In this document: piece by piece, positions 1,154 through 28,496 of the stretch | How the letters are laid out: every line of letters begins with the position of its first letter | Numbering within the stretch: the stretch's first letter is position 1 | From: a virus | Virus record (IMG/VR): IMGVR_UViG_3300027763_000187 | Coordinates: 1 to 28,561 of that record | Strand: one strand, 5' to 3' | DNA: 28,561 nt | The notes under the pieces: generated by a model | Databases searched by the model: none | What the model saw: only the letters and a program-made list of their open reading frames with translations | What the model was told of the DNA's origin: nothing | Position numbers and translations under genes: made by a program

Positions 1154-4100
1154 ATGGCACTAACATCACCAGGCGTACAAGTTACGGTAATTGACGAGAG
1201 TTTTTATACTCCAGCTGAACCAGGAACGGTTCCGTTAATTGTTGTAGCCACTGCTGAAAACAAAATAAACGGAGCTGGCACAGGCACAGCTTCGGGTACC
1301 ACTGCAGCCAATGCAGGCAAGGTATTCAAAATGACCAGTCAACGAGAACTTGTTGACACATTTGGTTCACCGTTCTTTGAAAAGACAGTATCGGCTAGTC
1401 CTATACACGGTGGCGAAAGAAACGAATACGGTCTACTAGCTGCCTACAGCTTGTTAGGCGTTTCGAATTCTGCATTTATCCTACGTGCAGATATCAACCT
1501 AAATGAACTAGAAGGTCAAACAGATGCACCGGGAGCGGACCCAGCTGATGGCAAGTGGTGGGTAGACACACAAACTACTACTTGGGGTATCAACGAATGG
1601 AACGGTTTGGCATTAACCGATAGCGGTCAAAAATTCACTGCTAAAACTCCATTAGTACTCACAGATGCCGATCTTGACAACATCAACAGCAATGCTCCTA
1701 AAACATCAGTAGGCACCATCGGTGACTATGCTGTGGTGTTTCAAACAGCAGCAGGCGACGGAACATTTTTAGCTGAAGATGAGCTGGTAAGAATATACTA
1801 CAAGAGTGCAGGCAATGCCACCGCTGGTATCACAGCCGGTACGTGGGTACTGGTTGGTAGTCCTAATTGGACAGCCAGTCATCCCACAGTATTCAGCTCA
1901 GCAGCGGTAGGAGCATTATCAGGCACATTTACAATTAATGATACTAGTATTACAACAGGAGCAAATTTAACTGCTTGTGTTTCGGATATTAATACAAAGA
2001 TGAACGGCAGTGGTATTACAGCTGTTGCCAGCAACAGTAGATTGTATCTATACAGTGACGGCACTTCTACAGCTACAGGTGGTGACTCCACTGCAACTGC
2101 AGGCGGAACTGGTGGTATTGTACTTGCCAATACATCTGGTACCCCGTTGGCTTCATTGAACATTACAGCCGGCACATACATGTGCCCAGTATTGGCTCAA
2201 CAGCCACATACCAGTGTTCCGCTGTTTAAAAGATCAGATTTTGGATCTACTGTAAATGCTCGTCCTACAGGTTCTGTATGGCTGAAAACAACTGAGCCAA
2301 ACAACGGAGCTCGTTGGAGAGTTAAAAAATACAATGCAAGCACTGATGCTTGGATGGCTAATGAAGCACCCCTGTATGCAACTCCGCACTCTGCACTATA
2401 CTATCTTGATAAATCCGGTGGTGGTGCAAATCTTCCCAAAGGTGCATTGTTTGTTCAAACAAATGCCAGAGAAGATATAGGATCATATTCTGCAAGCGGC
2501 GGCGGCATTCCTCCTTTTGGTGCCCTAGATGCAACACTAGCTACTACCACTTTTAGAATATTTAAAAGAGCTGCCAGCGGTGAAACTGCTATCAAATCTA
2601 AAATTATTACCACAGGAACAATTAGTGTATCTACAGCAAGTATAGCAGCTACCGCATTAGTAGTTGGAACATATTACATAATTCAATCCCTTGGAAATAC
2701 TAATTGGAACACAGTGGCAGGTACAAGCGGGGTAACATATGCTGTTGGTGATACAGTTGTTCCTGCAGTAGCTGGCACTGGCACTGGCACTGCGTATCTT
2801 GCTAAAACATTTACTATTAAACAATCAATAGTGGGAGATGCAAACATAAGCGCAGCAGCAACTATTGCGTTTGCAGCAATCAATGCTGATGACTCTTTTA
2901 GAATCGCTGGAGCAATAAATGCTGCTAACTATGTTGACTCAACAGGTGCTGCTATTACAAATAACGTAGTGGCCAGTGTTACTACCAGTAACGAATTAGT
3001 GATCACACACAAGACCGGTGGCGATATCAGACTGACTGATGTTGCAGGTACTGCCGTTGGTACATTGTTCACTGTTTACAACCTAGAAACAGGTGCTGGC
3101 ACCAGTAATTTCTACGCATTGTCAAGTGGTTTGGCCACAGGAGCACAAGAAGGTTATTTGGCTTCCTTATGGATGCCATTGGTTGGTGATGTGTTTGCTG
3201 CTACTCCAGATGCTCCATTAGAAGAGCCAGCAGATGGACAACTATGGTATAATCCTGCATTTGGCGAGGTGGATCTAATGATACACAATGGCACAACCTG
3301 GGTAGGCTATCAAAACTTTACAGGATATACTACAACTGATCCCGAAGGTCCCATTGTATCCGCAAGTATGCCAATATTACAAACTGACGGTGGTGCTTTG
3401 GTCAACGGTGACATTTGGATCAGCACAGCTGATTTAGAAAACTTCCCCAGTATATATAAATTCAACACCGATGCAGGCAATCAAATTGCACTAAAATGGG
3501 TATTAGTTGACAAGACCGATCAAACCACAGAAGAAGGTGTATTGTTTGCAGATGCTCGTGCAGGTACAAGCGGAGGCTCAGCCACTGCTGCGCCTACTGG
3601 ATCAATCAAAGATTTATTAACCAGTAATTTCTTAGATCCAGATGCACCGGATCCAGATCTATATCCCAAAGGAATGTTGCTGTGGAATCTACGTAGAAGC
3701 GGTGGAAACGTTAAGAAATACAACAATGGCTATATTGACACCACAGCAGATAACGAAAGACAATCCGGATCACCAAGTATGGAATTATACTGGCCAGATC
3801 GTTGGACCACTGCTAGTCCCAACAATGAAGACGGTTCAGGATCATTTGGTCGCAAGGCACAGCGATCAGCTGTGGTTGCTGCATTGAAGAGCGCCATTGA
3901 CACCAGCGAAGAAGCACGTGACGAAGAACGCAGAAACTTCAATCTAATTGCTTGCCCCGGATATCCAGAAGCACTTAGCAATCTAATCAACTTGAATCTG
4001 GATCGCAAGGTCACAGCTTTTGTGGTTGGTGATACACCACTGCGTCTAAAGAGTGATGCAACAAGCCTAACAACCTGGGGTACCAATGCTAATCTAGCAC

Positions 4101-4783
4101 TGGACAACGGAGACAACGGCATTGTTACCTATGACGAATATGCAGCGGTTTACTATCCAAATGGATTTACCACTGACCTTACAGGTGCCAATGCTGTGGT
4201 TCCAGCCAGTCACATGATGCTGAGAACTATTGCTCTAAGCGATCAAGTGAGTTTTCCTTGGTTTGCTCCAGCAGGCACACGTCGTGGCGGGATTACCAAT
4301 GCCACAGCAGTGGGATATATTGATTCGTTGACAGGTGAATTCCAAAGCGTTGCTTTAAACAACGGTCAAAGAGACACCCTGTATGATCTAAAGGTTAATC
4401 CAATTCCGTTCTTTGTAGGTACAGGATTGGTAGCTTATGGTCAAAAGACTCGTGCAAGAAATGCCAGTTCTCTAGATAGAATTAACGTGGCACGCCTTGT
4501 GGTATATCTACGCAGTCAGTTGACAAAACTAGCTCGCCCATATATCTTTGAGCCAAATGATCAAATCACTCGTGATGAAATCAAACAAGCTGTGGAAAGT
4601 CTGTTGCTGGAACTAGTGGGTCTAAGAGCTATCTATGACTTTGCAGTAGTGTGTGACGAAACCAACAACACACCAAGTAGAATTGATCGTAATGAATTAT
4701 ATGTAGATGTTGCCATTGAGCCAACCAAGGCCGTTGAATTTATTTACATACCATTGCGTCTCAAGAACACAGGTGAGATCTAA
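1154..4783 (+). CDS. gp18: Contractile tail sheath protein with a very large insertion (T4 gp18-like)
   Basis: This 1209-residue protein forms the outer contractile sheath of the tail around the gp19 tube. The N-terminal sheath core (about residues 1-120, starting MALTSPGVQVTVID) and the C-terminal core (about 890-1209, with SFGRKAQR, FNLIACPGYPEAL and the LLLELVGLRAIYDF end) match the gp18 family. T4 gp18 has 659 residues. The extra length is an insertion of roughly 770 residues made of Gly/Thr/Ser/Ala-rich beta-type repeats, described separately. The start ATG has AGGAGA 8 nt upstream and follows a CTAAATA late promoter. The tube gene follows after 30 nt. The insertion presumably projects from the sheath surface, by analogy with the variable outer domains of T4 gp18. 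Confidence 0.9.
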   Translation: MALTSPGVQVTVIDESFYTPAEPGTVPLIVVATAENKINGAGTGTASGTTAANAGKVFKMTSQRELVDTFGSPFFEKTVSASPIHGGERNEYGLLAAYSLLGVSNSAFILRADINLNELEGQTDAPGADPADGKWWVDTQTTTWGINEWNGLALTDSGQKFTAKTPLVLTDADLDNINSNAPKTSVGTIGDYAVVFQTAAGDGTFLAEDELVRIYYKSAGNATAGITAGTWVLVGSPNWTASHPTVFSSAAVGALSGTFTINDTSITTGANLTACVSDINTKMNGSGITAVASNSRLYLYSDGTSTATGGDSTATAGGTGGIVLANTSGTPLASLNITAGTYMCPVLAQQPHTSVPLFKRSDFGSTVNARPTGSVWLKTTEPNNGARWRVKKYNASTDAWMANEAPLYATPHSALYYLDKSGGGANLPKGALFVQTNAREDIGSYSASGGGIPPFGALDATLATTTFRIFKRAASGETAIKSKIITTGTISVSTASIAATALVVGTYYIIQSLGNTNWNTVAGTSGVTYAVGDTVVPAVAGTGTGTAYLAKTFTIKQSIVGDANISAAATIAFAAINADDSFRIAGAINAANYVDSTGAAITNNVVASVTTSNELVITHKTGGDIRLTDVAGTAVGTLFTVYNLETGAGTSNFYALSSGLATGAQEGYLASLWMPLVGDVFAATPDAPLEEPADGQLWYNPAFGEVDLMIHNGTTWVGYQNFTGYTTTDPEGPIVSASMPILQTDGGALVNGDIWISTADLENFPSIYKFNTDAGNQIALKWVLVDKTDQTTEEGVLFADARAGTSGGSATAAPTGSIKDLLTSNFLDPDAPDPDLYPKGMLLWNLRRSGGNVKKYNNGYIDTTADNERQSGSPSMELYWPDRWTTASPNNEDGSGSFGRKAQRSAVVAALKSAIDTSEEARDEERRNFNLIACPGYPEALSNLINLNLDRKVTAFVVGDTPLRLKSDATSLTTWGTNANLALDNGDNGIVTYDEYAAVYYPNGFTTDLTGANAVVPASHMMLRTIALSDQVSFPWFAPAGTRRGGITNATAVGYIDSLTGEFQSVALNNGQRDTLYDLKVNPIPFFVGTGLVAYGQKTRARNASSLDRINVARLVVYLRSQLTKLARPYIFEPNDQITRDEIKQAVESLLLELVGLRAIYDFAVVCDETNNTPSRIDRNELYVDVAIEPTKAVEFIYIPLRLKNTGEI
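1510..3820 (+). repeat. Fibre-like repeat region inserted in the tail sheath
   Basis: Between the two sheath core parts, a loose motif of the type GxLW-x(n)-W recurs: DGKWW near residue 131, TGSVWLK near 372, KGALFVQ near 429, DGQLWYN near 694, NGDIWIS near 750 and KGMLLWN near 838. In several copies a short strand ending in Trp (such as NGTTW or ALKW) follows 15-25 residues later. Two copies of a flagellin/hook-like 'IN' type segment occur near residues 249-305 (GTFTIND ... SRLYLYSDG) and 578-628 (DSFRIAG ... NELVITH). A segment near 503-549 resembles the VGTYYIIQSLG...GTGTGTAY module often seen in marine phage tail-fibre proteins. Family assignments of the modules are from memory. Confidence 0.6.
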
Positions 4784-6590: not shown

Positions 6591-6958
6591 GCACAATTAA
6601 TTTACCAGCAGTGACAAAAACAGACAGTGCTGCAAGTACAAAATTATTTTTTGATACCTACGGTCGGCGTCCTTTAGAATTTGGTGCCAATGAAGTTACT
6701 GCCAGTATAGGATTTTTTACAGGTAGAGGATTTGAAGAAGAAGCCGCCTTGACCACAGCTATGACCATACTACGTCAGGCCAAAATAGATGGCGTCCAAG
6801 TTTTTGAAATATTAGACACCTTGAAAGAACTCAACGGTACACAACTCAGTGCAGTAGTTGCACAGATTCTCAACAAGTATCGTCCCAACACATCTTCATT
6901 GGGATTTAGATCTGTGAATGTTATCAAGATAAATCAAACTAGAAATATTTTACCATAA
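6587..6958 (+). CDS. Conserved T4-like phage protein, probably virion-related
   Basis: This 123-residue protein is not recognised with certainty. It looks globular and mostly helical, with FFDTYGRRPLEFGANEV, GFFTGRGFEEEAA and a helix-rich ILRQAKIDG ... ILDTLKEL stretch. Small proteins of this kind sit among tail and head genes in aquatic T4-like phages (from memory). It is coupled by overlap on both sides: its ATG overlaps the upstream stop (ATGA), and its TAA overlaps the gp4 ATG. This places it in the same transcript as a tail protein and a head-completion protein. No signal peptide or membrane segment is visible. Confidence 0.6.
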   Translation: MSTINLPAVTKTDSAASTKLFFDTYGRRPLEFGANEVTASIGFFTGRGFEEEAALTTAMTILRQAKIDGVQVFEILDTLKELNGTQLSAVVAQILNKYRPNTSSLGFRSVNVIKINQTRNILP

Positions 6959-7395
6959 TGGCCAAATTTGCTCAAGGAAGATTCGAAATGAAAAATCCTG
7001 GAAAATATGTTGGGACCAAAACACCATTGGCAAGATCAAGTTGGGAATTTGTGTTCATGCGTATGCTGGATGAACATCAAGGCGTAGAAAAATGGGCCAG
7101 CGAAAGCATACAAATACCCTACAGGGATCCCCTAACAGGAAAATATACCATATATGTACCTGATTTTTTTATTACCTATGTTGACAAAAATGGAGCCAAA
7201 CATGCGGAAGTTGTTGAAGTAAAACCAGCCAGTCAAACGCTGCTGGCCAATGTTGGCAAGAGTGTTTATAACCAACAACAATATATAAAAAATATGGCCA
7301 AATGGGAAGCTGCTACTAAATGGTGCAGGCAGAAAGGCATTAAATTCCGTGTGGTCAACGAAGAACATATTTTTCATCAAGGTTCAAAACGCTGA
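6958..7395 (+). CDS. gp4: Head completion nuclease (T4 gp4-like)
   Basis: This 145-residue protein corresponds in size and sequence to T4 gp4 (150 residues), which is needed to finish DNA-filled heads before tail joining. It shows a TnsA/PD-(D/E)xK nuclease signature: E30 in SSWEF, PD at 68-69 in VPDFFI, and E87-V-K89 in EVVEVKP. The likely role is trimming or protecting the packaged DNA end. It starts within the upstream stop codon (TAATG), and its own stop (TGA at 7393-7395) lies inside the late element of the next gene. Confidence 0.85.
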   Translation: MAKFAQGRFEMKNPGKYVGTKTPLARSSWEFVFMRMLDEHQGVEKWASESIQIPYRDPLTGKYTIYVPDFFITYVDKNGAKHAEVVEVKPASQTLLANVGKSVYNQQQYIKNMAKWEAATKWCRQKGIKFRVVNEEHIFHQGSKR

Positions 7396-7406: not shown

Positions 7407-7895
7407 ATGACAAAGAAACTTGAAGAATTATTTAATTTAGACGACAAACAGATAAACCCTGTTCCTAAATCTATCAACGAAGAATTAGTAGAAAAAGCAA
7501 CAGAAGTAAAAACACTAGATGAAAGCATTGAAGCTGTTAATCAAATTACTAGAAATCTGCCGCAGATAATTGAATTAAATGATTTAAACGATAATGAGTT
7601 AGACAATCTTGCTAGTAAAGCAGAAAAGGCTTACGACGATCTAATGGATCTAGGTATGAATGTTGAAGTTCGTTACAGTGGACGCATATTTGAAGTAGCA
7701 AGTTCTATGATGGGCAATGCTATTACAGCAAAGGCCGCAAAGATTGATAAAAAGCTCAAAGCCATAGATCTACAGCTTAAAAAATACAAGATTGATAAAG
7801 ACAATAACGAAGACCCCAATGACGTGATCAACGGACAGGGTTATGTGATCACCGATCGCAACGAGCTCATCAAGAAATTGAGCGGCAAAGCATAA
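7407..7895 (+). CDS. gp16: Terminase small subunit (T4 gp16-like)
   Basis: This 162-residue protein matches T4 gp16 (164 residues) in length and layout: an N-terminal linker starting LEELFNLDD, a central helical pair (about residues 50-130, IIELNDLNDNELDNL ... AKIDKKLKAIDLQLKKYK) that would form the oligomeric coiled coil, and a short C-terminal tail. It recognises phage DNA and stimulates the gp17 ATPase in packaging. It lies directly downstream of gp4 and is separated from gp17 by three genes, whereas in T4 genes 16 and 17 are adjacent. The start codon has a TAAGTA element 5 nt upstream and no Shine-Dalgarno. Confidence 0.8.
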   Translation: MTKKLEELFNLDDKQINPVPKSINEELVEKATEVKTLDESIEAVNQITRNLPQIIELNDLNDNELDNLASKAEKAYDDLMDLGMNVEVRYSGRIFEVASSMMGNAITAKAAKIDKKLKAIDLQLKKYKIDKDNNEDPNDVINGQGYVITDRNELIKKLSGKA

Positions 7896-7898
7896 ATA
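7891..7898 (+). promoter_or_regulatory. Late promoter CATAAATA, 5 nt from the start codon at 7904
   Basis: CATAAATA, then CTAAC, then ATG at 7904. The element overlaps the gp16 stop codon. No Shine-Dalgarno is present. Confidence 0.65.
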
Positions 7899-7903
7899 CT
7901 AAC

Positions 7904-8473
7904 ATGAAACCATTTACAGAATATCTTGCTGAAAGCAAAAAAATCTATAACTTCAAAGTCAAAGTGGCTGGAGAATTGCCCGAAGCTTTTCAAGAAAACT
8001 TGAAGACAGCACTAGATCGTTGCAAATGTATCAAGTTAGAAAAAATCAAGACCACTCCAATACAGGCATTGCCTTTGGACTTCCCCACAATGAAAAATTG
8101 TGAAGTAACTGTGTTTGAAGTGATATGTGAATATCCTATCACAGGACCAGAAATAACCAGTGATGTTAAGGCCCTGGGACTCGACGAAGCCAGTTTTCGT
8201 GTACGAGGCGGCAGTGAACCCACAGAAGCTGATCAAGTTCTGCTAGACAATGAACCAACGGGGCAGTCACTGTTGACAGATTCTGCCTACAAAGAAAACA
8301 CAAATGTCAAACACAAAGATTATTTTGGTGATGACTTCAACAAAGGTTTTTTAAAAGACCTTGAAAAAACTGCAAAACAACGTAAAAAAGATCAAACTGG
8401 GCCAACAGAATACAAGCTGCCCAAAGGCAAGACTGACAAGTTAGGCCTTAAAAGCGCAATGGGGAGTAAATAA
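7904..8473 (+). CDS. Probable internal head protein with a gp21-type capsid-targeting leader
   Basis: This 189-residue protein begins MKPFTEYLAES. The pattern follows the T4 capsid-targeting sequence of internal proteins such as IPIII (MKTYQEFIAEA), which the prohead protease gp21 cleaves after an (L/I)xE motif followed by a small residue. Here cleavage would fall after E10 of YLAE, leaving S11. The middle (about residues 15-105) looks like a small alpha/beta domain, and the C-terminal 60 residues are strongly basic and probably disordered (KTAKQRKKDQ). It could be packaged and then injected with the DNA. The function of the mature protein is unknown. The ATG is 5 nt after a CATAAATA element. 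Confidence 0.65.
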   Translation: MKPFTEYLAESKKIYNFKVKVAGELPEAFQENLKTALDRCKCIKLEKIKTTPIQALPLDFPTMKNCEVTVFEVICEYPITGPEITSDVKALGLDEASFRVRGGSEPTEADQVLLDNEPTGQSLLTDSAYKENTNVKHKDYFGDDFNKGFLKDLEKTAKQRKKDQTGPTEYKLPKGKTDKLGLKSAMGSK

Positions 8474-9345
8474 TGGATTTTAATCAACTGTTAGCCAAGA
8501 TGAGAGACTTGGATCAACCTACCACAGAAGCCTGTGGTGATGCACCTATGCCTATGAGCATGCCACCTACAATGGATAGTCAACCGCCACCGAGTCATCC
8601 TAGTATGAGTGTTAATCTCAATGCACAAGGCATGGATAACATTGAAAGTTTGATGAAACTCATGACCAAGGTTAACCCGGATATGATTAACCAGCCAGCT
8701 AAGATGATGCCGATGCCAGCTATGACTGCAATGCCATCATTGACTCCTCCGGGACCTAGCATATCTGCCATCGGTGATCTTGGTAACTTGGATGCTGGCC
8801 CTTTAAAGATGTTGCCGGACCTAGACATGGATGAACCACACGACGAGCCAGATGCAGATAATATGGGCGGCCCCAGCGACATGGACTCTGATAATATGCC
8901 TAGTGACCACGTCGACAAAGCTCACGGTGATCAAGATGGTGACGGTGATCACGACATGGATGATCACAACATGGAAAAAGATGACGACAAGAAAAATGAG
9001 TATGCCAACGAGCCAGAAGAAGAATACAAAGACATTGACTATATGGTGAACAAACTTGCTGGTGGTATGAATGGCCCTAAAGGCACATACCCCAAAGTAG
9101 CAGGCGGTGATAATCCCATGCAACGGGTTGAAGCTGTGGATTTAAGAACTTCTATTAGAAACGAACTACATAGTCGTTTAGCAGAAGTTAAATCTCACCA
9201 ATCTGCCACCACAATGAAGCACATTAAGAACCCAACTGCTGGCGAAAAGAAAGCTGCTAAAGACATCAAGCCAGGCGTAGCTGGATATAAAGATCGTATG
9301 GATATGTTAAAGTCGGCTGAAGCTGATGGTAGATTAAAAGATTAA
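8473..9345 (+). CDS. Met/Pro- and Asp-rich low-complexity protein, probably structural or scaffolding
   Basis: This 290-residue protein has three parts. A short N-terminal helix (MDFNQLLAKMRDL) leads into a Met/Pro-rich stretch (to about residue 115), then an extremely acidic stretch (about 115-190), then a more ordered C-terminus that includes RNELHSRLAEVKS and ends DMLKSAEADGRLKD. The acidic part contains DQDGDGDHD, which fits the DxDxDG pattern of EF-hand or dockerin calcium loops, although no flanking helix is obvious. Its start overlaps the previous stop (TAATG) with GGGGAG just upstream. Position between terminase genes suggests a head or scaffold role; this is inference. Confidence 0.6.
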   Translation: MDFNQLLAKMRDLDQPTTEACGDAPMPMSMPPTMDSQPPPSHPSMSVNLNAQGMDNIESLMKLMTKVNPDMINQPAKMMPMPAMTAMPSLTPPGPSISAIGDLGNLDAGPLKMLPDLDMDEPHDEPDADNMGGPSDMDSDNMPSDHVDKAHGDQDGDGDHDMDDHNMEKDDDKKNEYANEPEEEYKDIDYMVNKLAGGMNGPKGTYPKVAGGDNPMQRVEAVDLRTSIRNELHSRLAEVKSHQSATTMKHIKNPTAGEKKAAKDIKPGVAGYKDRMDMLKSAEADGRLKD

Positions 9346-9794: not shown

Positions 9795-11384
9795 ATGGCA
9801 AAAAGTCTCGACGGTAATTTAATCAAAAAAGCTCACGCACCTCAACGGTACACGTTGGAGGAAGTCAAACATCTAGAAGCCTGTATGGATCCTGTTGACG
9901 GTCCATTATATTTCTGTAAAAACTTTTTAAAGATTCAGCATCCTGTACGTGGATCAATTCCGTTTGTGCCTTACGAGTATCAAGAAAGATTGATTCAATC
10001 ATACCACAACTACAAACAGTCTATTGGTATGTTACCTCGTCAGATGGGCAAAACCACTTGTGCCACAGGATACTTGTTATGGTATACACAATTTGTGCCG
10101 GAAGCACAGGTGTTAATTGCTGCTCACAAGTATGAAGGTGCGCAGGATATTATGAATCGTTATCGATTTGGCTACGAAAATCTTCCCGATTTTATTCGTG
10201 CAGGCGTTTATTCATATAACAGAAATACCATCGAATATGACAACGGTGCTCGTATACAGGCAGTGACCACAACAGAAAATACGGGTCGTGGTAAATCTCT
10301 TTCACTGATCTATTGCGATGAGTTTGCATTTGTGCAACCACCAGAGAAAGCCAAAGAGTTTTGGACTGCGTTATCACCTACTCTGTCAACGGGTGGTAAA
10401 TGTATTATTACATCAACTCCAAACTCAGACGAAGATCAGTTTGCGTTAATTTGGACAGAAGCTCAAAATCGTTTTGATGAATTTGGCAATGAAACTGAAT
10501 TGGGGAAAAACGGATTTCACAGCTTTTTTGCACATTGGAATGAACACCCTGATCGCGACGAAGCATGGGCTCAAACAGAAAGAGCCAAAATAGGAGACGA
10601 ACGATTTCGTAGAGAATTTGATTGCGAGTTTTTGATTTTTGATGAAACACTAATCAATTCTGTTAAACTTGCAGAACTCAAAGGCATTGATCCCATAATG
10701 ACCATGGGGCAAACACGTTGGTATAAAGAAATTGATTCTAGATGCACCTATCTAGTGTCATTGGATCCCAGCCTTGGCACTGGTGGTGACTATGCTGCCA
10801 TCCAGGTGTTTGAAATGCCTAACATGATCCAAGTTGCTGAGTGGCGTCACAATCTAACTCCTATACAGACGCAGGTAAAACACCTAAGAGAAGTCTGCAA
10901 ATACATTCAAGACAGAAGCACAGAACTAGGCGGCACTAGTTCGCAGATCTACTACAGTGTAGAAAATAATACTCTAGGCGAAGCTGCATTGATTGTGATT
11001 AACAATATAGGCGAAGAAAACTTTCCCGGACTGTTTCTAAGTGAACCCATACGCAAGGGCCACGTTAGAAAATTCCGCAAGGGATTCAACACCACACACC
11101 GTACAAAAATAACCACCTGCAGTCAGCTCAAACATATGCTAGAAACACAAAAAATGAAGATCAATAGCAAGCCTTTGATTTCTGAGTTAAAAACTTTTGT
11201 AGCTCACGGAGTAGGATTTGGAGCCAAGACCGGAGAACACGACGATCTTGTGAGTGCAACATTATTAATACTGCGTATGGCCACTATTCTCAGCGACTGG
11301 GATCCTAAAATCTACGAAAAAATGACTGAAAAACTCACAGAAGATCAAATGCCAATGCCGATCTTTGTCAGCAGCGGTTATTGA
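9795..11384 (+). CDS. gp17: Terminase large subunit (T4 gp17-like)
   Basis: This 529-residue protein is the packaging motor ATPase and headful nuclease. Walker A is PRQMGKTT at residues 81-88, Walker B with the catalytic Glu is LIYCDE at 171-176, and a coupling-type STPNS motif follows. The RNase H-like nuclease domain shows the acidic triad D324 (SLDPSLGTGGDYA), E390 (VENN) and D484 (HDDLVSA), corresponding to D401, E458 and D542 of T4 gp17. It is shorter than T4 gp17 (610 residues) mainly at the ends. The start ATG lacks a Shine-Dalgarno and lies 5 nt behind AGTAAATA. Confidence 0.95.
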   Translation: MAKSLDGNLIKKAHAPQRYTLEEVKHLEACMDPVDGPLYFCKNFLKIQHPVRGSIPFVPYEYQERLIQSYHNYKQSIGMLPRQMGKTTCATGYLLWYTQFVPEAQVLIAAHKYEGAQDIMNRYRFGYENLPDFIRAGVYSYNRNTIEYDNGARIQAVTTTENTGRGKSLSLIYCDEFAFVQPPEKAKEFWTALSPTLSTGGKCIITSTPNSDEDQFALIWTEAQNRFDEFGNETELGKNGFHSFFAHWNEHPDRDEAWAQTERAKIGDERFRREFDCEFLIFDETLINSVKLAELKGIDPIMTMGQTRWYKEIDSRCTYLVSLDPSLGTGGDYAAIQVFEMPNMIQVAEWRHNLTPIQTQVKHLREVCKYIQDRSTELGGTSSQIYYSVENNTLGEAALIVINNIGEENFPGLFLSEPIRKGHVRKFRKGFNTTHRTKITTCSQLKHMLETQKMKINSKPLISELKTFVAHGVGFGAKTGEHDDLVSATLLILRMATILSDWDPKIYEKMTEKLTEDQMPMPIFVSSGY

Positions 11385-13524: not shown

Positions 13525-13755
13525 ATGAAATCAGCAATCGCAATCCTCGCTACCGTGTTCGCCGTATCAGCATTTGCACAAGCACCTGCTAAGAAAGAAG
13601 AAGCCAAACCAGCAGCACCAGCTGCCGCAGCAAGTGCTCCAGCACCAGCTAAAGCTGAAGCCAAAAAGGAAGAGAAAAAGCCTGCAAAAAGTGACAGTGC
13701 TAAGAAAGACGCACCTAAAGCAGACGCAAAGCCAGCCGCTGCTCCAGCAAAGTAA
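13525..13755 (+). CDS. Small secreted Ala/Lys/Pro-rich protein
   Basis: This 76-residue protein begins with a clear Sec signal peptide (MKSAIAILATVFAVSAFA, cleavage expected after A18 before QAPAKK). The mature part, about 58 residues, consists almost only of Ala, Lys, Pro, Glu, Asp and Ser and is surely disordered, so it would act in the periplasm or at the envelope. Its make-up resembles small host proteins frequent in Burkholderiales, so it may be host-derived. The ATG is supported by an AAGGAAA Shine-Dalgarno. The gene has its own intergenic leader after the terminator at 13411-13434, including an AT-rich TATATATA stretch near 13474-13481 that could be a -10 region, although no good -35 box is visible. 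Function is unknown. Confidence 0.7.
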   Translation: MKSAIAILATVFAVSAFAQAPAKKEEAKPAAPAAAASAPAPAKAEAKKEEKKPAKSDSAKKDAPKADAKPAAAPAK

Positions 13756-21081: not shown

Positions 21082-21702
21082 TCATTTTGCAAGTCCTCCT
21101 AGGGAAATTGAATACCAATCATTAACTGGATGGTCGGTGTCTCTAAACCACCAATACAAATCTGGACCCGTCCAATCTTTGAATTGTTCTTGATACCACT
21201 CAATACTACGGGGATATGTTATCCAATTGGGATCATACATTCTTTTTTTAGACTTTACAGGTTTGTCTGGTTTGTGTAATCCTATGAATACAAACTTAGT
21301 AGCATAGTTCATTAATTTATCTTTCAACCAGGGCATATCAACATCAGGAATACTGCCTAGTACCTGTGTACAACTAACAGCATCAAATGTTTGTCCAACA
21401 GGTTCTATTTCAAATTCTTTTACACAAGGATCAAACTTATAAACACTTTCCGCATTTATTCTAGTCTGAAATGTCATTGGTTCTGTTACTCGATCGTGCG
21501 GCATTCCGTATGAAACTAAATTTTCATACTGTCTACCTTTACCGCATCCATAGTCTAGCACAGTTTTAGCAGCATACTTATCCATAAGAACACGGATTTG
21601 ATTGTGATAATTTTTACAATCGTCACCGCCCCAACTGCTGTTATTCAATTGAAATTGTTTTCCTAATTCTACACTTTGTAAATAATATTCGCTTGGCATC
21701 AT
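21082..21702 (-). CDS. Class I SAM-dependent methyltransferase
   Basis: This 206-residue protein carries the SAM-binding motif I VLDYGCGKGRQYE (about residues 48-60) and a later TFDAVSCTQVLGSIPD segment of the class I Rossmann fold. The substrate is not evident; its place at the end of a glycan cassette suggests O-methylation of a sugar or a nearby small group. The start (ATGATG at 21702) overlaps the upstream stop in an ATGA junction. It is the last gene of the minus-strand operon and converges with the plus-strand cassette. Confidence 0.75.
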   Translation of the reverse strand: MMPSEYYLQSVELGKQFQLNNSSWGGDDCKNYHNQIRVLMDKYAAKTVLDYGCGKGRQYENLVSYGMPHDRVTEPMTFQTRINAESVYKFDPCVKEFEIEPVGQTFDAVSCTQVLGSIPDVDMPWLKDKLMNYATKFVFIGLHKPDKPVKSKKRMYDPNWITYPRSIEWYQEQFKDWTGPDLYWWFRDTDHPVNDWYSISLGGLAK

Positions 21703-22418
21703 AATTTTCCTATAAACTTTTTATTTTCCGCGACCCACTTTTGTGATTCTACAGATTTATTATATTGACTGGTCCATTCACTGTATATTTGCCAGTTATT
21801 GGGTTCGGCATATTCATGTCTAATTAGATACATTTGACAACTAACTTTAACTGCTCGTGCACCTTCACCTAAAATATACTTAAACATTACATTACCACTT
21901 TTTTGTTTTGAGGGTGCATTTACTTTTGCTAATACAGTTTCTGCAGAAGCAAGCATAGACTTTCGAGCTATGATTAAAAAATCAGGAACTTTTTTTTCTA
22001 TGGCTTCTGCTCTTTCGTATAACTTATCACAGCAATTTAAAAAGTCTAGCCCCATAAAAGAAACATCGGTATTGCCAGCTACAATCTCATCAATTTCTTT
22101 CAATACAACCTGCATAGAATTTTTTGTAAACCAAATGTCAGTGCGTATTTTAATAATGATATCTTCAGTGACTTGTTTATTGGCCTGTACAAAATCCCAT
22201 AACTGAATAGCACCACTGGAATCATACGGACAAGTTGTATCACTAGAGTTTGATCTGAATCTATCAGTGAACTCTCCCATATTTAATCTTTTACCTTTTG
22301 CAAAATCATAAATTGTTAATTCATATTTTGTTCTTAACAGATTAAAAAGTTCTTCGTGATTAGCTTGAGAAGTCTGATGAAACCTTCGTTCGCCAATATA
22401 TGCTATTCCGATTGCCAT
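21699..22418 (-). CDS. WavE-like glycan biosynthesis protein, copy 2
   Basis: This 239-residue protein is a tandem paralogue of the gene product encoded just upstream. Both start with (M)x-I-A-(I/C)-x-Y-(I/T)-G-(E/D)-(K/R)-R, and both have a GxIQ(L/V)WDF motif, an (I/L)RTD(I/V)WFT motif and a C-terminal CQ(M/T)(Y/W)LIR motif. WavE-type proteins are linked to lipopolysaccharide core synthesis in Vibrio and are thought to be glycosyltransferases, but the reaction is not established here. The ATG at 22418 overlaps the upstream coding region by 16 nt. An in-frame TTG at 22478 would add an N-terminus not shared with the paralogue. Confidence 0.65.
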   Translation of the reverse strand: MAIGIAYIGERRFHQTSQANHEELFNLLRTKYELTIYDFAKGKRLNMGEFTDRFRSNSSDTTCPYDSSGAIQLWDFVQANKQVTEDIIIKIRTDIWFTKNSMQVVLKEIDEIVAGNTDVSFMGLDFLNCCDKLYERAEAIEKKVPDFLIIARKSMLASAETVLAKVNAPSKQKSGNVMFKYILGEGARAVKVSCQMYLIRHEYAEPNNWQIYSEWTSQYNKSVESQKWVAENKKFIGKL

Positions 22419-23254
22419 CTTTTGAAATCCTCGATATTTAAATCCTGCGCTTCCCATCCTTGGCGACTTCTCCACCAATTAACTGCATCTTGCATAGGAT
22501 GAGGAATAACAAATGTCTTTTTACTTATTTCTGATTTATCATCTAATATATAGCTTTGTATGTAGTCCTTGCAAACTTCATTGTCTGTGGGATATGAAGT
22601 ATATGTTTTTCTAATTAACCATGTTTGGCACAATATCCTAAAAGCATTGACGTCTTGAAAATGAAAATATTCGGTCTTTGACATAGGAATTAAAAGTTTA
22701 AAAAGATTGTTACCACTGCGGCGTTTTTTAGCAGCAAGGCCGGTGATATAGTCTATAACTTCTTTACCTGGCTTTAGTTGCGATCTATTAGCAACAATTA
22801 CAAAATCTTGTACGCGGCAAGGAACTCCGTCTATGACAACCATTTTATGATAAATCTTTCCAGAATTTGCATGTATCCAATCGCTGCCAAAAAACGCTAT
22901 ATCTGTTTTACCTGCAAGTATTTTTTTAATCTCTTCGCATACGATAGAAATACTAGAGTCAGTGAACCAAACGTCTGTGCGTAATCTCATAACATAAGGC
23001 TCTGTGGTACGCTCACAACTTCTATAAAAGTCCCAGACCTGTATTCCTCCGCCTTGTCCTCGACGATACACATTATCAAGTGCTGGGTCTCCTTCTTCGA
23101 AAGGACAGACTCCTCGACCGGGGTCATCTTTGGTAAACCAATAGACATTAACATCTATAATTTCTTTAAGGCAATCAAACAGACGTTGGTGATTTTGTTT
23201 GACAATTTCTAAATTATGTCTCTTATCGCCGGTATAGCATATTGCTATTTTCAT
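22403..23254 (-). CDS. WavE-like glycan biosynthesis protein, copy 1
   Basis: This 283-residue protein begins MKIAICYTGDKRHN and contains GGGIQVWDF, the acidic motif MRLRTDVWFTD (a possible metal- or donor-binding DxD-like site), DIAFFGSDW and CQTWLIRKTY. The same motifs occur in order in the next gene product, so the two arose by tandem duplication, with this copy longer at the C-terminus (WWRSRQGWEAQDL). The ATG overlaps the upstream stop in an ATGA junction. A glycosyltransferase role is inferred from family resemblance and neighbours. Confidence 0.65.
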   Translation of the reverse strand: MKIAICYTGDKRHNLEIVKQNHQRLFDCLKEIIDVNVYWFTKDDPGRGVCPFEEGDPALDNVYRRGQGGGIQVWDFYRSCERTTEPYVMRLRTDVWFTDSSISIVCEEIKKILAGKTDIAFFGSDWIHANSGKIYHKMVVIDGVPCRVQDFVIVANRSQLKPGKEVIDYITGLAAKKRRSGNNLFKLLIPMSKTEYFHFQDVNAFRILCQTWLIRKTYTSYPTDNEVCKDYIQSYILDDKSEISKKTFVIPHPMQDAVNWWRSRQGWEAQDLNIEDFKRWQSE

Positions 23255-24276
23255 AGATAGTCTCTTAAATTATCTGTATCTCTTTTTAAATTAATAGCAA
23301 TTGCTCTTGGAAATGGGTTAGCTTCATTATAGTCATTTATTAAAATTCGTTTGGTGTTAGGCAACCCTGTGATCAATTTAAAATTTACAAACCCTAATCC
23401 TTTTAACATTTTTTCTATACGGTTATGTATTTTTTCAGGGCGAGCTGTTGTAAAGATTATTAAGCTACCTTCTTTTTGCAGTTCCAACAATCTAGAAACA
23501 TTCTGTTCTAAAGGCGTTGGGTCTTCTTGGTATTCATGTCTAGCCTGTGCTTTAACCAATGTTCCGTCGATGTCACAGAAAATAACAGCTTTATTATTAT
23601 ATTCAAACCACTCCTCTGCAGTTCCCACGTCGGCATAGTTCCAAACAATACTTTCTTTAAAAATATGATGTTCATTAAGGCATTCTTCAATAATATGACT
23701 AACAAATATTTCATTAACATGAGCTTCGATTAATTTTTCATAGATAGAGATAAACATGTTTGCTGATTCAAATTTATAACCTCCTACGCAAAATTTATCG
23801 GATACAACTTGTTTTTCAATTATAGAATTGATGATTCCCTGATCATTAGTAATTACAAAACTTTTCGAACCTAATCGTTTTAATATTTCATGATTCTTAA
23901 TACTAGAAACACAAACATAGTTACCTTCTTGGTATTCGTGTTCAAAGAAACTATCACAATCTTTAATTAATATATCTTCATCTTCTGGAAGTTCTATTTG
24001 TTTTAATATTTGATACACGGTGTCGGCAGGACCGGCTGTTCTTTCTTTTAATATAACTACCGTAATATTGTTGCCGTACTCTTGTTCAATGTATTTTGAA
24101 ATATTATGTTTGTCTTCGTGCTCTTGCAATAATCCGATAGTAACATGATGTTTACCAATAAACGGACTTAACGATTTTTCAAACATCATTTTACCCGAAT
24201 AATCAGTCAATGAATATTTAGGGCGCATATTAGGAAATCTTGTAGATAATCCTGCTGCTGGCATTATTATTTCCAT
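23251..24276 (-). CDS. Sugar-phosphate or phospho-alcohol nucleotidyltransferase fused to a HAD phosphatase
   Basis: This 341-residue protein has an N-terminal nucleotidyltransferase domain (residues 1-225) with the signature IMPAAGLSTRF...PKYSL, ERTAGPADTV and the metal-site KDCDSFF. A C-terminal HAD domain begins at the motif IFCDIDGTLV and has TTARPE as its second motif and a late LINDYNE acidic motif. Such fusions occur in capsule clusters. The enzyme would activate a phosphorylated precursor with an NTP and also hydrolyse a phosphate. It lies directly after an APH-type kinase with a 10-nt overlap, so kinase and nucleotidyltransferase may act in sequence on one substrate. Confidence 0.75.
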   Translation of the reverse strand: MEIIMPAAGLSTRFPNMRPKYSLTDYSGKMMFEKSLSPFIGKHHVTIGLLQEHEDKHNISKYIEQEYGNNITVVILKERTAGPADTVYQILKQIELPEDEDILIKDCDSFFEHEYQEGNYVCVSSIKNHEILKRLGSKSFVITNDQGIINSIIEKQVVSDKFCVGGYKFESANMFISIYEKLIEAHVNEIFVSHIIEECLNEHHIFKESIVWNYADVGTAEEWFEYNNKAVIFCDIDGTLVKAQARHEYQEDPTPLEQNVSRLLELQKEGSLIIFTTARPEKIHNRIEKMLKGLGFVNFKLITGLPNTKRILINDYNEANPFPRAIAINLKRDTDNLRDYL

Positions 24277-25010
24277 AATAAATTAATTCCTTCTAATAAA
24301 AAGTTTCGTTCGAGCGTGTTAGGTTTACTGTGCCTATATACTCTCAACAACATTAGAATCAATAGATAGTTGTTGCTTGCTTCTGAATATTGGTGCAATA
24401 TTCGTTGTTGTATGTGTTTGGTTTTTACATCTAGCATAGTATTGTCTTTTCGAGTAAACCATCCAAGCTCAAGATCTTGTCTAAGTTTTGCAATGTCAAA
24501 AATATAGGAATCGTATTCTGTTGTGACACAATCAATAAGAAAAAATCCGCGATCGGTAGTAAAAATAATATTTTCTAATGTTAAGTCGCCATGATAATTT
24601 GAACTCGGTAATACTTTAGGAAGACGTTCTAAAAGTTGTTCACGAGTAAATGGCAATTCGTCAAAACTAACTTCTTGTAATTTTTTAATATATGTTTCTG
24701 TATAGTCTTTGTCCACAGCATTACTAGAAAGTTTATCTAGGATAGACAAAATAAAGTCCAATAACTTTTCGTAGTTGTTAGTTTTAAGATATGTTTTAAT
24801 ATCTAGCCCGTGTAGGTATTCCATATCAATTATTTTCTTTGACACAGTGTACAGTTGAGGAAGAGGATAATCTATAGCTAATGCCTGCATACGCTCAATG
24901 TTTCTAGATATGTTTCCTATCTTTCGTACAAAGAGTTTGTCGTGCTTTTGCATTAGCAATATTTGATTTCCAGAAAATCCATAAAGTTCTTTAACTACCT
25001 TAGCGGCCAT
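24267..25010 (-). CDS. APH/choline-kinase-type phosphotransferase
   Basis: This 247-residue protein shows the small-molecule kinase signature YHGDLTLENI (catalytic Asp in HGD, metal-binding Asn in ENI) followed by FFLIDCVTTE, where the second metal-binding Asp occurs. This is the aminoglycoside phosphotransferase/choline kinase (LicA) superfamily. The neighbouring nucleotidyltransferase-HAD fusion makes phosphorylation of an alcohol, amine or sugar before nucleotide activation likely. Antibiotic resistance is not implied. The ATG lies 3 nt after the stop of the oxygenase gene. Confidence 0.7.
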   Translation of the reverse strand: MAAKVVKELYGFSGNQILLMQKHDKLFVRKIGNISRNIERMQALAIDYPLPQLYTVSKKIIDMEYLHGLDIKTYLKTNNYEKLLDFILSILDKLSSNAVDKDYTETYIKKLQEVSFDELPFTREQLLERLPKVLPSSNYHGDLTLENIIFTTDRGFFLIDCVTTEYDSYIFDIAKLRQDLELGWFTRKDNTMLDVKTKHIQQRILHQYSEASNNYLLILMLLRVYRHSKPNTLERNFLLEGINLLWK

Positions 25011-25012
25011 AA

Positions 25013-25735
25013 TTAAAAATTGTCTTGTTGCCTTGCCTTATATATAGTTGAATGTCGGCTTCGTTCTATTCCTTCTTTGGGAGTTGTATAATAATAAAAT
25101 GCAAGACTTCTTCTTACCCTATTATCAGGGCAATTTAAAGGATCAGGGTGTCCGTGCCATGAAGTGTCTGTAGTATTAAAAATCACCGTAGTGTTTTTTC
25201 TCGGCGACACTGTTTTTTTCAGAGCGCCCATTGCAGTATCCCACAAATCTAAATTTCCACCGTAGTTATCCTGCCAATCATCATTCAAATATATTAAAAC
25301 ATTAATCCTTCTATCTAAACTTGTTATAGGGTGTATATTAAAATCTACATGCATCTTTAAAAATCCGCCTTTACGAATTTCATGAGGGCCACCACCTTCG
25401 AGATAGGGATCCGATTGTATGTAGTTAATTCCTGTTAATTTTTCTAAGAACACACAAAATTCTTTGCTATTGAGTTCTTGACTAAATTCTTTTGTAATCG
25501 GTTCAAATAGTTTTAATTTTTCTGGTTGTCTAAAACTTAATTTTTGTAATGTGGTCTTGTTAGCCTTGCCCTTCATATGTTTTTCCATGGCAGGAAATTC
25601 ATCGTGCATTTTTTGTAACATATTATTATCAAACAAATCAAATAACACTATATGGGCAAACGGCGAAGCATTTACGTATTCATTGTGCCGTTCTTCGGCT
25701 AATTTATTAAACTTTTCTGGATCAAAATATTTCAT
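25013..25735 (-). CDS. 2-oxoglutarate/Fe(II)-dependent oxygenase
   Basis: This 240-residue protein is a prolyl-4-hydroxylase-type 2OG-Fe(II) oxygenase. The iron facial triad is visible as HVD in FLKMHVDFNIHP and the distal His in TSWHGHPDP, and the 2OG-binding Arg follows in RVRRSLAFYYYT. The family hydroxylates proteins, sugars or small molecules. In this cluster it may hydroxylate a glycan precursor or a virion protein residue that is then glycosylated. The gene begins 9 nt after the upstream methyltransferase gene and ends 2 nt before the kinase gene. Confidence 0.8.
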   Translation of the reverse strand: MKYFDPEKFNKLAEERHNEYVNASPFAHIVLFDLFDNNMLQKMHDEFPAMEKHMKGKANKTTLQKLSFRQPEKLKLFEPITKEFSQELNSKEFCVFLEKLTGINYIQSDPYLEGGGPHEIRKGGFLKMHVDFNIHPITSLDRRINVLIYLNDDWQDNYGGNLDLWDTAMGALKKTVSPRKNTTVIFNTTDTSWHGHPDPLNCPDNRVRRSLAFYYYTTPKEGIERSRHSTIYKARQQDNF

Positions 25736-25744
25736 AATATTTTC

Positions 25745-26296
25745 TCATTTCATAGCAACAATTCTACTGTCATTGGGTGATTTTGCAAATTGATTTGCCT
25801 CCGAAGTCCATCCTGAAAACCCATTTTCTACAAATGCCTGACCTAAACTTTCTACACTATATCCCCAGCGATGAATCATAGATGGATGGTCGTATCTTAA
25901 ATCATCATAAAAAAATACAAATAAGGTGCGTTTCATATCTTTTCGATCTTTTGATGTTAAAATTTTTGGATTGTTTACAATTTCTCTGCATGCCTTTAGC
26001 GTGTCTGGCCATTCAGTTACCACTCGTCCTCCTGGTTTAAGGATACGCAACCATTCTTTAAGCATCTTTGGGATATCTTTTCTTGAAATATGTTCAATCA
26101 CATGGATAGATATTATTTCATCAACTGTGTTATCTGGGATTGGGAATGTTCCGGTGATATCTTGAACACACACTTCCGGAGTTGCCTGACTTCCGTCAAC
26201 ATTAATGTAACCGTCAAGCATAACTGGGCCGCATCCAAGATGCAATTTGACTGGCAAATTATTTTTGTTTTTTTCTTGTATTTTTTCATTAAGCAT
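25745..26296 (-). CDS. SAM-dependent methyltransferase
   Basis: This 183-residue protein has a class I methyltransferase core with LHLGCGPVMLDGYINVD (motif I and the acidic residue for ribose), ISIHVIEHI and WLRILKPGGRVVTEWPD. It is of the predicted SAM-methyltransferase type common in sugar and exopolysaccharide clusters (GCGxxxxxGYxNVD type). The start overlaps the upstream stop by 8 nt. The substrate is unknown. Confidence 0.75.
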   Translation of the reverse strand: MLNEKIQEKNKNNLPVKLHLGCGPVMLDGYINVDGSQATPEVCVQDITGTFPIPDNTVDEIISIHVIEHISRKDIPKMLKEWLRILKPGGRVVTEWPDTLKACREIVNNPKILTSKDRKDMKRTLFVFFYDDLRYDHPSMIHRWGYSVESLGQAFVENGFSGWTSEANQFAKSPNDSRIVAMK

Positions 26297-26891
26297 TTTT
26301 TGTTCCTAGCATATTAATAGATAGATATTTAATATATTTCTTCGTTTTTCGTCCAGCTTCATTGTAATCAGCAATTATCATTTTGCGTTCACTAATTCGA
26401 TCCATCTCCTGAAATTCAATATCATTTTCAGAGGTACTTGACCAAGCAAAATTACCCCATGTAAAATTTGGATACAGATATTCTATAGCACTATGAGTAA
26501 ATCTATAATAGTCTTTGGGATACCCGTGATATTTCCAAACCCACGGAACTGCAATATATAGTTTGCCACCAGGCTTTACCAGCTCTGATATTTTTTCAGC
26601 CATGACCCAAGGATTTGGCACATGCTCCATCACGCTGCAACAGATCACAAGATCAAAATGATTTTTGGGCAACGGATTTTCAGGAGCTGTTAAATCACAT
26701 ATAACATCAACGTCTATTCCGGGCTCTATATCAGTGCCAACGTATTCTGTAGCAATACGTAGCTGACCTTTAGTAGGAGCAAAGTATCCTCGAAACCCAG
26801 TAGAGTTTTCTCTGGCTCCTATTTCTAATACTGAACCTGTGAATGTCGGATATACTGTTTTAATGTAAATTAAATCGTTAGGACTTCCCAT
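26289..26891 (-). CDS. SAM-dependent methyltransferase
   Basis: This 200-residue protein has the class I methyltransferase motifs VLEIGARENS, DLVICCSVMEHVPNP and ISELVKPGGKLYIAVPWVWKY. The sequence between the first and second motifs is longer than usual and has a conserved-looking GTDIEPGIDVDVICDL stretch. A Shine-Dalgarno-like AAAGG occurs 10 nt upstream of the ATG, and the upstream stop lies 1 nt before it. It is not a close copy of the neighbouring methyltransferase, so the two probably act on different positions. Confidence 0.75.
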   Translation of the reverse strand: MGSPNDLIYIKTVYPTFTGSVLEIGARENSTGFRGYFAPTKGQLRIATEYVGTDIEPGIDVDVICDLTAPENPLPKNHFDLVICCSVMEHVPNPWVMAEKISELVKPGGKLYIAVPWVWKYHGYPKDYYRFTHSAIEYLYPNFTWGNFAWSSTSENDIEFQEMDRISERKMIIADYNEAGRKTKKYIKYLSINMLGTKNA

Positions 26892-26892
26892 A

Positions 26893-27858
26893 TTATTCTA
26901 CCTTTAATTGCTTAATGACTTCATCTATGAATTTTTTCGATAATACGCGAGCAGAATAGTTTTGTTCTGTATACTCTTGTCCTAGACGAATACGTTCTTT
27001 TACTTCTGCTGGATTTTTCAAAGCCCATTTTATACCTTCAATATAATCATCTTGCCAAGTGTAAGGTGCAAATTCTTCATAGCTGGCCAATGCTGTGGTA
27101 ATTACAAATTTTCCAGAGATTAGGCTGTCAATTAATCTATTTGCGCTTTTGGTATCGGTTCTAGGATTATCGGTCATTACAGGCATTAACACAATATCAC
27201 ATTCTGTCAACAATTTTCCCTGGTGTTCCCAAGTCCATTCTTGCATATCTAATTTACTAAAATTAATTCCGGATATTTGACCCTTGTTTTGTCGTTGGGT
27301 CATTTTACTAAGCACTCTATCAGTTTTTGCGCTGACCATAGTGAACTTATAATCCACAATTTCTTTTTCTAACCTCTGCCAACATTCAACTATAGGAAAG
27401 AATTTAAAACTACTTTGACTTCCAAACCATAATAATTTTAATTCTTTACTAGGATCAAATTTAGGCGTTAATTTTGGCCGTTCGTAGGGATCAGGCATTA
27501 CTATGCTGTCTTTTCCGGTATGGTGCTTGGTACTAATTCCCATATTAACGCTGTTAACTGAAACTAAATCTGCCAGTTGACAACAAGGCTCGTATTCTTC
27601 TTTTTCTTCGAATTTATTATCACATAGATCATAGATAGTTTTAGCACCTAGGTCTTTAGCACGTTGAATACTGTGAGGCTGACTACGTTTTAAAAATACA
27701 ATAATGGTATTTGCATCAACCTCACTCCAATCTGTCAATACTTTTGAATCATATCCTTGGTCAGCTAGTGCCTGACAGGTTACATCGCCTCGAAGTCTGT
27801 GACTGGCTCTTTTACTTTTATAAGCATCGCTGAAAAACCTAATTTTTATGTTGTGCAT
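26893..27858 (-). CDS. GT-B family glycosyltransferase
   Basis: This 321-residue protein has a GT4/GT1-like layout. The N-terminal part has IKIRFFSD, SHRLRGDV and TIYDLCDNKFEE, the linker runs through VMPDPYERP, and the C-terminal donor domain has KLLWFGSQSSFKF, ECDIVLMPVMTDNPRTDTKSANRL and the closing NRLIDSLISGKFVITT. The SANRLIDSL segment takes the place of the usual EAMA-type Glu motif. The ATG at 27858 (MHNIKIRFF) is preferred to an in-frame TTG at 27870; it overlaps the upstream gene by 13 nt. Confidence 0.75.
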   Translation of the reverse strand: MHNIKIRFFSDAYKSKRASHRLRGDVTCQALADQGYDSKVLTDWSEVDANTIIVFLKRSQPHSIQRAKDLGAKTIYDLCDNKFEEKEEYEPCCQLADLVSVNSVNMGISTKHHTGKDSIVMPDPYERPKLTPKFDPSKELKLLWFGSQSSFKFFPIVECWQRLEKEIVDYKFTMVSAKTDRVLSKMTQRQNKGQISGINFSKLDMQEWTWEHQGKLLTECDIVLMPVMTDNPRTDTKSANRLIDSLISGKFVITTALASYEEFAPYTWQDDYIEGIKWALKNPAEVKERIRLGQEYTEQNYSARVLSKKFIDEVIKQLKVE

Positions 27859-28496
27859 TTTAAAATCCAATCTTTTTTATGTTGATCTACTACTCGATAA
27901 CCCCAAGACTCTAAAATTTTAATAGATGGCTTGTCGGTCATTGCGTCTTTGTATTCGTGCTTCTGTTGTTCAACAACAATTACTGGTTTATTTCTAAGAA
28001 TGGTCTGCATTGCGCCTGCAAGTATTTCTTCTTCAAATCCTTCTACATCAATCTTTATCAAATCAATATTTTCATAGTTGTAACTGTCTAGAGTTCTTAA
28101 CGGAATAGAACCCTTGCCTACTGATGTAGGATCAATATGACTGTGTCCGGTATTTCCCTGAACAATATTCATTTCTATCAGTGATTCAGTACGCCCAAGT
28201 GCCACTGGTTCAATTACATAGTTGCTGCTTGTTACGTTTTTCTTAAAACATTCTCTAAATTCAGCAACTGGTTCAAAAGCAATAACTTTTTCAAATTGTT
28301 TTACAAGATCGCAAGACCATAGGCCTACATTTGCACCAATGTCAATGCAAATTCTTTTGTTATCACAAGATGCAATTGCAGAATCTCTAGCCCTCCATTG
28401 ATATCGAACTACTCCGTCATTCTTAAGGCTTTTTGCAAGCATTCTAGGAAAATGATCATCATAATCTGGAAACCAAAATCCGTGGCTTTCTATCAT
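27846..28496 (-). CDS. FkbM family methyltransferase
   Basis: This 216-residue protein has the FkbM-type SAM-binding motif CIDIGANVGLWS followed by VIAFEPVAEFRECFKKN, then the typical IPLRTLDSYN and IDLIKIDVEGFEEEILAG. FkbM proteins O-methylate sugars and polyketides. It is the first complete gene of the minus-strand cassette in this window, and its ATG overlaps the stop of the upstream partial gene (ATGA). Confidence 0.85.
   Translation of the reverse strand: MIESHGFWFPDYDDHFPRMLAKSLKNDGVVRYQWRARDSAIASCDNKRICIDIGANVGLWSCDLVKQFEKVIAFEPVAEFRECFKKNVTSSNYVIEPVALGRTESLIEMNIVQGNTGHSHIDPTSVGKGSIPLRTLDSYNYENIDLIKIDVEGFEEEILAGAMQTILRNKPVIVVEQQKHEYKDAMTDKPSIKILESWGYRVVDQHKKDWILKCTT

Follow-up and report, generated by a model that had tools for sequence, protein, structure and literature searches.

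A leader of the T4 capsid-targeting type, with a predicted gp21-type cleavage site, on a member of a virion protein family conserved among T4-like giant myoviruses

The N-terminus of ORF X resembles the leader of the T4 internal proteins, and the locus raises the question of whether its product is carried into the phage head and trimmed there by a gp21-type protease. The window, that is, the whole stretch of DNA analyzed here (28,561 nucleotides), is a viral fragment of 28.5 kb that comes from a T4-like giant myovirus. Its gene order, as in the relatives, runs from a dNMP kinase through tail sheath, tail tube proteins, a gp4-like protein, a small-terminase-like ORF, X, ORF Y and the large terminase to a further virion protein. 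ORF X (7904–8473, + strand) encodes a 189-aa member of a conserved virion protein family (phrog_14802), which begins MKPFTEYLAESKKIYNF... (also quoted as MKPFTEYLAESKKIYNFKVKVAGE...). Translation of this ORF gives MKPFTEYLAE/S at the N-terminus, the slash marking the predicted cut here and below. The start at 7904 is sound, since this ATG is the first start codon after a stop and about 10 codons are open upstream of it in near-identical relatives.

For T4 IPIII, a review (PMC9026906) assigns targeting to residues 4 and 7 and processing to residues 8 and 10, and states that an Asp at position 10 stops processing but leaves targeting intact. In the leader of X (MKPFTEYLAE, residues 1–10; 7904–7933, +), F4 and Y7 would fall to targeting and L8 and E10 to processing. 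A helix is predicted over residues 4–10, and a gp21-type cleavage site between E10 and S11 (7931–7936, +). When IMG/VR was first searched with X, 72 loci were recovered, and those that were read carry the leader at their start. We then gathered 95 distinct X homologues from IMG/VR by a DNA pattern for the mid-protein motif PLDFPxxxNxEV, which makes no use of the leader and thus avoids selecting on it. Position 4 is F, L, Y or I in 95/95 of these, position 7 is Y, I, F, H, L or V in 95/95, and position 8 is L or I in all 95 (L8 in 98%). Glu occupies position 10 in 91/95 (96%) and a small residue (S, A, N, T or G) position 11 in 94/95, while positions 2, 3, 5, 6 and 9 vary. The conserved columns 4, 7, 8 and 10 are in register with the mutational map of T4 IPIII (PMC9026906).

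The motif [LIVM]-x-E-[SAGNT] lies within the first 17 residues of 91/95 homologues, compared to 8.3% of similar-sized windows elsewhere in the same proteins. As controls, a permuted leader pattern matched 0 stretches in IMG/VR and a pattern with K2 and E6 swapped matched 12. The leader is thus beyond chance, both within the homologues and against these near-empty controls. An earlier IMG/VR leader scan demanded Ser/Thr-Lys after the site and was for that reason biased to X (111/115 classifiable matches were X when Ser/Thr-Lys follows the site), and all conservation figures quoted here come from the leader-free scan. For two distant homologues, the start that aligns was used instead of the annotated one, which looks 29 codons late in Atu_ph07 and 4 codons early in Phosso.

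A leader of this type calls for a matching protease. The initial annotation had proposed a search for gp21, and this was borne out in the relatives, 10/10 of whose genomes encode a gp21 (Pfam Peptidase_S77) above the curated cut-off; the window's own record, a 28.5 kb fragment, is without gp21. The major capsid protein offers a comparison for the site itself. Its propeptide ends in L-x-E/[SNT] in all 8 relatives read, with sites inferred by alignment to T4 gp23 (FLTE/AEIGG): YLAE/S in two long relatives (G001 and G002), FLVE/N in PA5oct, MLTE/S in 121Q, ALFE/S in K64-1, QLME/S in a Vibrio phage, PLME/T in Phosso and PLME/N in Atu_ph07. The five letters YLAES thus stand both in the window's X and in the capsid proteins that G001 and G002 encode. 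The gp23-type propeptide of the relatives shares the L-x-E junction with X but has about 40 residues or more, compared to 10 in the leader of X, and the mature parts are unrelated. Our results leave the first claim made for this locus, a T4-like leader with a gp21-type site, well supported at the sequence level: columns 4, 7, 8, 10 and 11 are conserved in 95 homologues gathered blind to the leader, the columns match the IPIII map, the relatives searched encode gp21, and the junction recurs as YLAE/S in the capsid protein of two relatives.

Do virions contain proteins of the X family? X had been described as unknown, but a profile search matches it to phrog_14802, annotated "virion structural protein" in the head and packaging category (E 7.4e-7, residues 4–151 against 4–154 of 179), and its homologues match this family down to 1e-106. 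X is homologous to phrog_14802 over most of its length and shares its gene neighborhood. Cultured members include CBB_210, 121Q gp557, K64-1 gp53 and PA5oct gp282. MS of CBB virions detected CBB_210 (13 unique peptides, 60.5% coverage; PMC5259590), and PA5oct gp282 is marked ESI-MS/MS in its record, both data sets coming from whole virions. MS of MIJ3 named four proteins, X not being one of them (PMC6892783). The phAPEC6 MS data (PMC7247149) were not used for X, because the gene predicted from gene order is listed at 16.2 kDa, which is too small and makes the mapping unsafe. The Pfam search gave no match for X or Y, and a profile search of solved structures with X gave one weak, unrelated match.

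The gene neighborhood is conserved as well. In the window, X follows a gp4-like head closure protein (6958–7395, +; phrog_218, 1e-37) and the small-terminase-like ORF (7407–7895, +; phrog_16202, with phrog_445 weak), and precedes ORF Y (8473–9345, +; 290 aa, without a family match, in the position of the MS-detected PA5oct gp281) and the large terminase (gp17-like; 9795–11384, +). The succession of gp4, small-terminase-like ORF and X is common to PA5oct, 121Q, K64-1, PBECO4, CBB and Vibrio 2.275.O. X sits between the small and large terminase genes or their neighbors, and this place is kept in RaK2-like and PA5oct-like phages, Atu_ph07, Phosso and a Vibrio phage.

According to our analysis, X belongs to the conserved virion proteins of T4-like giant myoviruses and is most likely part of the head, which it would enter by means of its N-terminal helix and where gp21 would trim it at E10/S11 in this lineage, a reading to which we give a probability of about 0.68. 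The N-terminal helix would recruit X to the prohead scaffold core, as in the T4 internal proteins, and a gp21-type protease would then cleave it after E10 in this lineage. The mature protein, of about 20.0 kDa, would start at S11-KKIYNF and would comprise a small domain, for which a ferredoxin-like fold is suggested, followed by a linker and, at the C-terminus, a helix and tail. Targeting by the leader, the cut and the stay of X in the head are all steps that we infer.

The predicted site is the point on which the family divides. The branch of the window has the complete T4-type leader with E10/S11, whereas several cultured phrog_14802 members are without the Glu. LTE is retained in X of 121Q, CBB (where the site, LTE/L in CBB_210, has an unusual P1'), GAP32, a Vibrio phage and Atu_ph07. 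The Glu at position 10 is gone in Munch (LTS), XaC1 (LTA), BF and Hallingskeid (both LID), K64-1 (LTD), PA5oct (YDA) and Phosso (LSS), and the X family can thus do without the cut. K64-1, PA5oct and Phosso retain the Glu at the capsid junction though their X has lost it, and the specificity of the protease is therefore not obviously changed in these phages. Moreover, the PA5oct homologue is found in virions although it has no such site, so X does not need a cut at E10 to be present in the particle. X probably retains its leader as an uncut docking helix in PA5oct, in Phosso and in several of the RaK2-like phages.

These same observations could be extended to the window, where the leader would then be a permanent helix docking X to the scaffold, the portal vertex or the neck, and L-x-E-S a helix cap that resembles a gp21 site. 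The conservation of X also shows no break at the site, since it extends beyond it to K13 (92%) and Y15 (95%), which is also what an N-terminus that is simply conserved would show. However, in the branch of the window the Glu is kept at 96% and a small residue at position 11 in 94/95, as gp21-type preference would have it, and the junction has the same letters as in the capsid protein of two relatives; we consider a permanently uncut helix unlikely here. A role in the neck or tail, with a leader unrelated to head entry, would agree with the position of X, whose gene stands in one block with those for sheath, tube and gp4, and with MS studies made on whole virions. This is the least probable of the readings, a very slim prospect, as the leader is conserved far above chance and turns up on further proteins that T4-like contigs encode.

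The initial annotation had suggested that X may be a new injected effector or a nucleoid-type head protein with a basic tail. Injection has a precedent in T4, where the leader bearers IPI–III and Alt are encapsidated and injected (PMC3012670, PMC5694885), and X could by analogy be an anti-defense effector in the host or a coat on the DNA. The basic tail is real in the window's copy, with a net charge of +7 over residues 134–189 and +1 overall, but it is not a family trait, the X family having a median net charge of −9.5 overall and −2 over the last 45 aa. A basic DNA-binding role is thus not a trait of the family. The T4 internal proteins are highly diverse outside the leader (PMC3012670), unlike X, which is a syntenic virion protein conserved across distant giant phages; MS has detected it in two of these, and it has no relative in T4. 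This conservation and synteny make a structural role likelier than an effector role, and injection or DNA coating appears to us improbable.

X shares with the T4 capsid-targeting sequence of IPII, IPIII and Alt a ten-residue leader with hydrophobic or aromatic residues at 4 and 7, I or L at 8, E at 10 and a small residue at 11; in contrast to the T4 bearers, X is conserved and non-basic, and in each of the two scanned relatives it is the sole bearer. IPI–III have this leader type in common with X but are small, basic and fast-evolving apart from it, while the domain and gene order of X are conserved across giant phages. The statement that the rest of X is unlike IPI–IPIII holds, since its profile finds no homologue in T4. 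A structure model of X (pLDDT 66) has helix 4–10, a ferredoxin-like domain at residues 15–102 (7946–8209, +), helix 143–164 and a disordered tail. The order of elements in 15–102 fits beta-alpha-beta-beta-alpha-beta (Foldseek E about 1e-3, Z about 7), and the structural neighbors listed are ribosomal S6 and other common ferredoxin-like folds, which indicate no function; a fold outside that list may also fit. At this low model confidence, the mature domain is suggested to be ferredoxin/S6-like. The C-terminal helix and the disordered basic tail (166–189) occupy 8330–8470 (+), with a charge that varies across the family.

The initial annotation had also proposed a search for further proteins with the same leader. 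The broad leader pattern found no bearer besides X in either G001 or G002, the two long relatives scanned. Elsewhere the leader is more widespread. T4 has MKTYQEFIAE at two loci (the ipII and ipIII positions) with the same DNA pattern, and the leader pattern with Ala at P1' occurs in at least 120 IMG/VR stretches. Among the matches listed, the full-length leader bearers fall into 37 BLAST clusters, X being one of them; the up to 36 non-X clusters are separated at the level of BLAST, and remote kinship between them is possible. gp21 is encoded on 7/20 leader-bearing contigs, which are mostly fragments. A proposal to which we give slightly less than even odds is that MKxFxE[FY][LI]xE/[AS] serves environmental T4-like viruses as a general and exchangeable tag for head loading, present on dozens of unrelated families, and that X is a fixed structural cargo which keeps the docking helix everywhere, while some branches have retained the cut and others have lost it.

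The DUF6267/phrog_455 domain of cultured phages (L628–L632) is preceded by FLAE/S, FITE/Q, YITE/D, LLVE/D or no leader. The leaders read MMKFTQFLAE/SKDV in Stenotrophomonas phage DLP_6 and MYNDLLVE/DKN in HTVC008M, and no leader stands at the start annotated for Synechococcus phage S-8S53. It looks as if the DUF6267 leader had been gained and lost.

In a separate family of small, strongly basic proteins (net charge about +3 to +10), the N-terminus MKIxEI[FLIM]E/[STND]A[TS]AGATS reproduces the capsid junction together with the mature N-arm. These capsid-arm mimics were found on 113 IMG/VR contigs (L514–L626) as 55 distinct proteins of 54–87 aa, save one run-on frame, and TAAATA lies at most 20 nt from the ATG in 43/55. 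The mimic of G001 (G001:C1:172840, −; L575) reads MKIREIVE/SATAGATSAGNVAIGAV... compared to YLAE/SATAGATSAGNVATLN in the capsid protein of the same genome, with which it has 13 identical residues; 121Q carries one mimic (phrog_17311). PA5oct gp281 (L074:12633-14126), which is MS-detected and adjoins X, has an internal capsid-junction motif, KVEE/TASAGASSAGGIASV, at about residue 42. In T4 itself (NC_000866), the hypothetical protein gp61.1 (L387:18966-19130, −; 54 aa) starts with MKTFKEFIKE followed by NPENISIGTTSGAVVNKGP, near the mature N-arm of gp23, NATNIAAGQTSGAVTQIGP. The best ungapped window between gp61.1 and the gp23 arm has 9/14 identical residues, and 300 shuffles peaked at 8. By its sequence, gp61.1 reads as a leader plus a capsid-arm mimic; a literature search on it found nothing. 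The mimics and gp61.1 are better internal-protein candidates than X.

Upstream of X, a T4-late-promoter-like CATAAATA (also NATAAATA; 7891–7898, +) lies 5 nt before the ATG and overlaps the stop codon of the upstream ORF. T4 spacing from this site would place the transcript start on the ATG of X. Late-promoter-like sites 4–6 nt from the ATG of long ORFs number 9/30 and 6/22 in G001 and G002, compared to permuted-motif means of 1.0 and 0.6, and there is a hint here that late mRNAs may be leaderless. Elsewhere in the window, the tail-sheath-position ORF (1154–4783, +) is unusually long at 1209 aa, and a short ORF (13525–13755, +) has a signal-peptide-like start and then a Lys/Ala/Pro-rich, repeat-like chain. 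Read by eye, the ORFs of the block at 21082–28496 (−) resemble methyltransferases, a nucleotidyltransferase/HAD fusion, a kinase-like protein, a 2OG-Fe oxygenase-like protein and glycosyltransferases, and the block may serve to modify surface glycans or the virion.

The T4 capsid-targeting rule, defined on few T-even internal proteins, is extended here to giant and environmental phages, and the leader becomes a sequence handle for spotting proteins that enter phage heads. One family annotated as "virion structural protein, function unknown" is thereby made testable: X should enter via the scaffold core and should be trimmed in some branches only.
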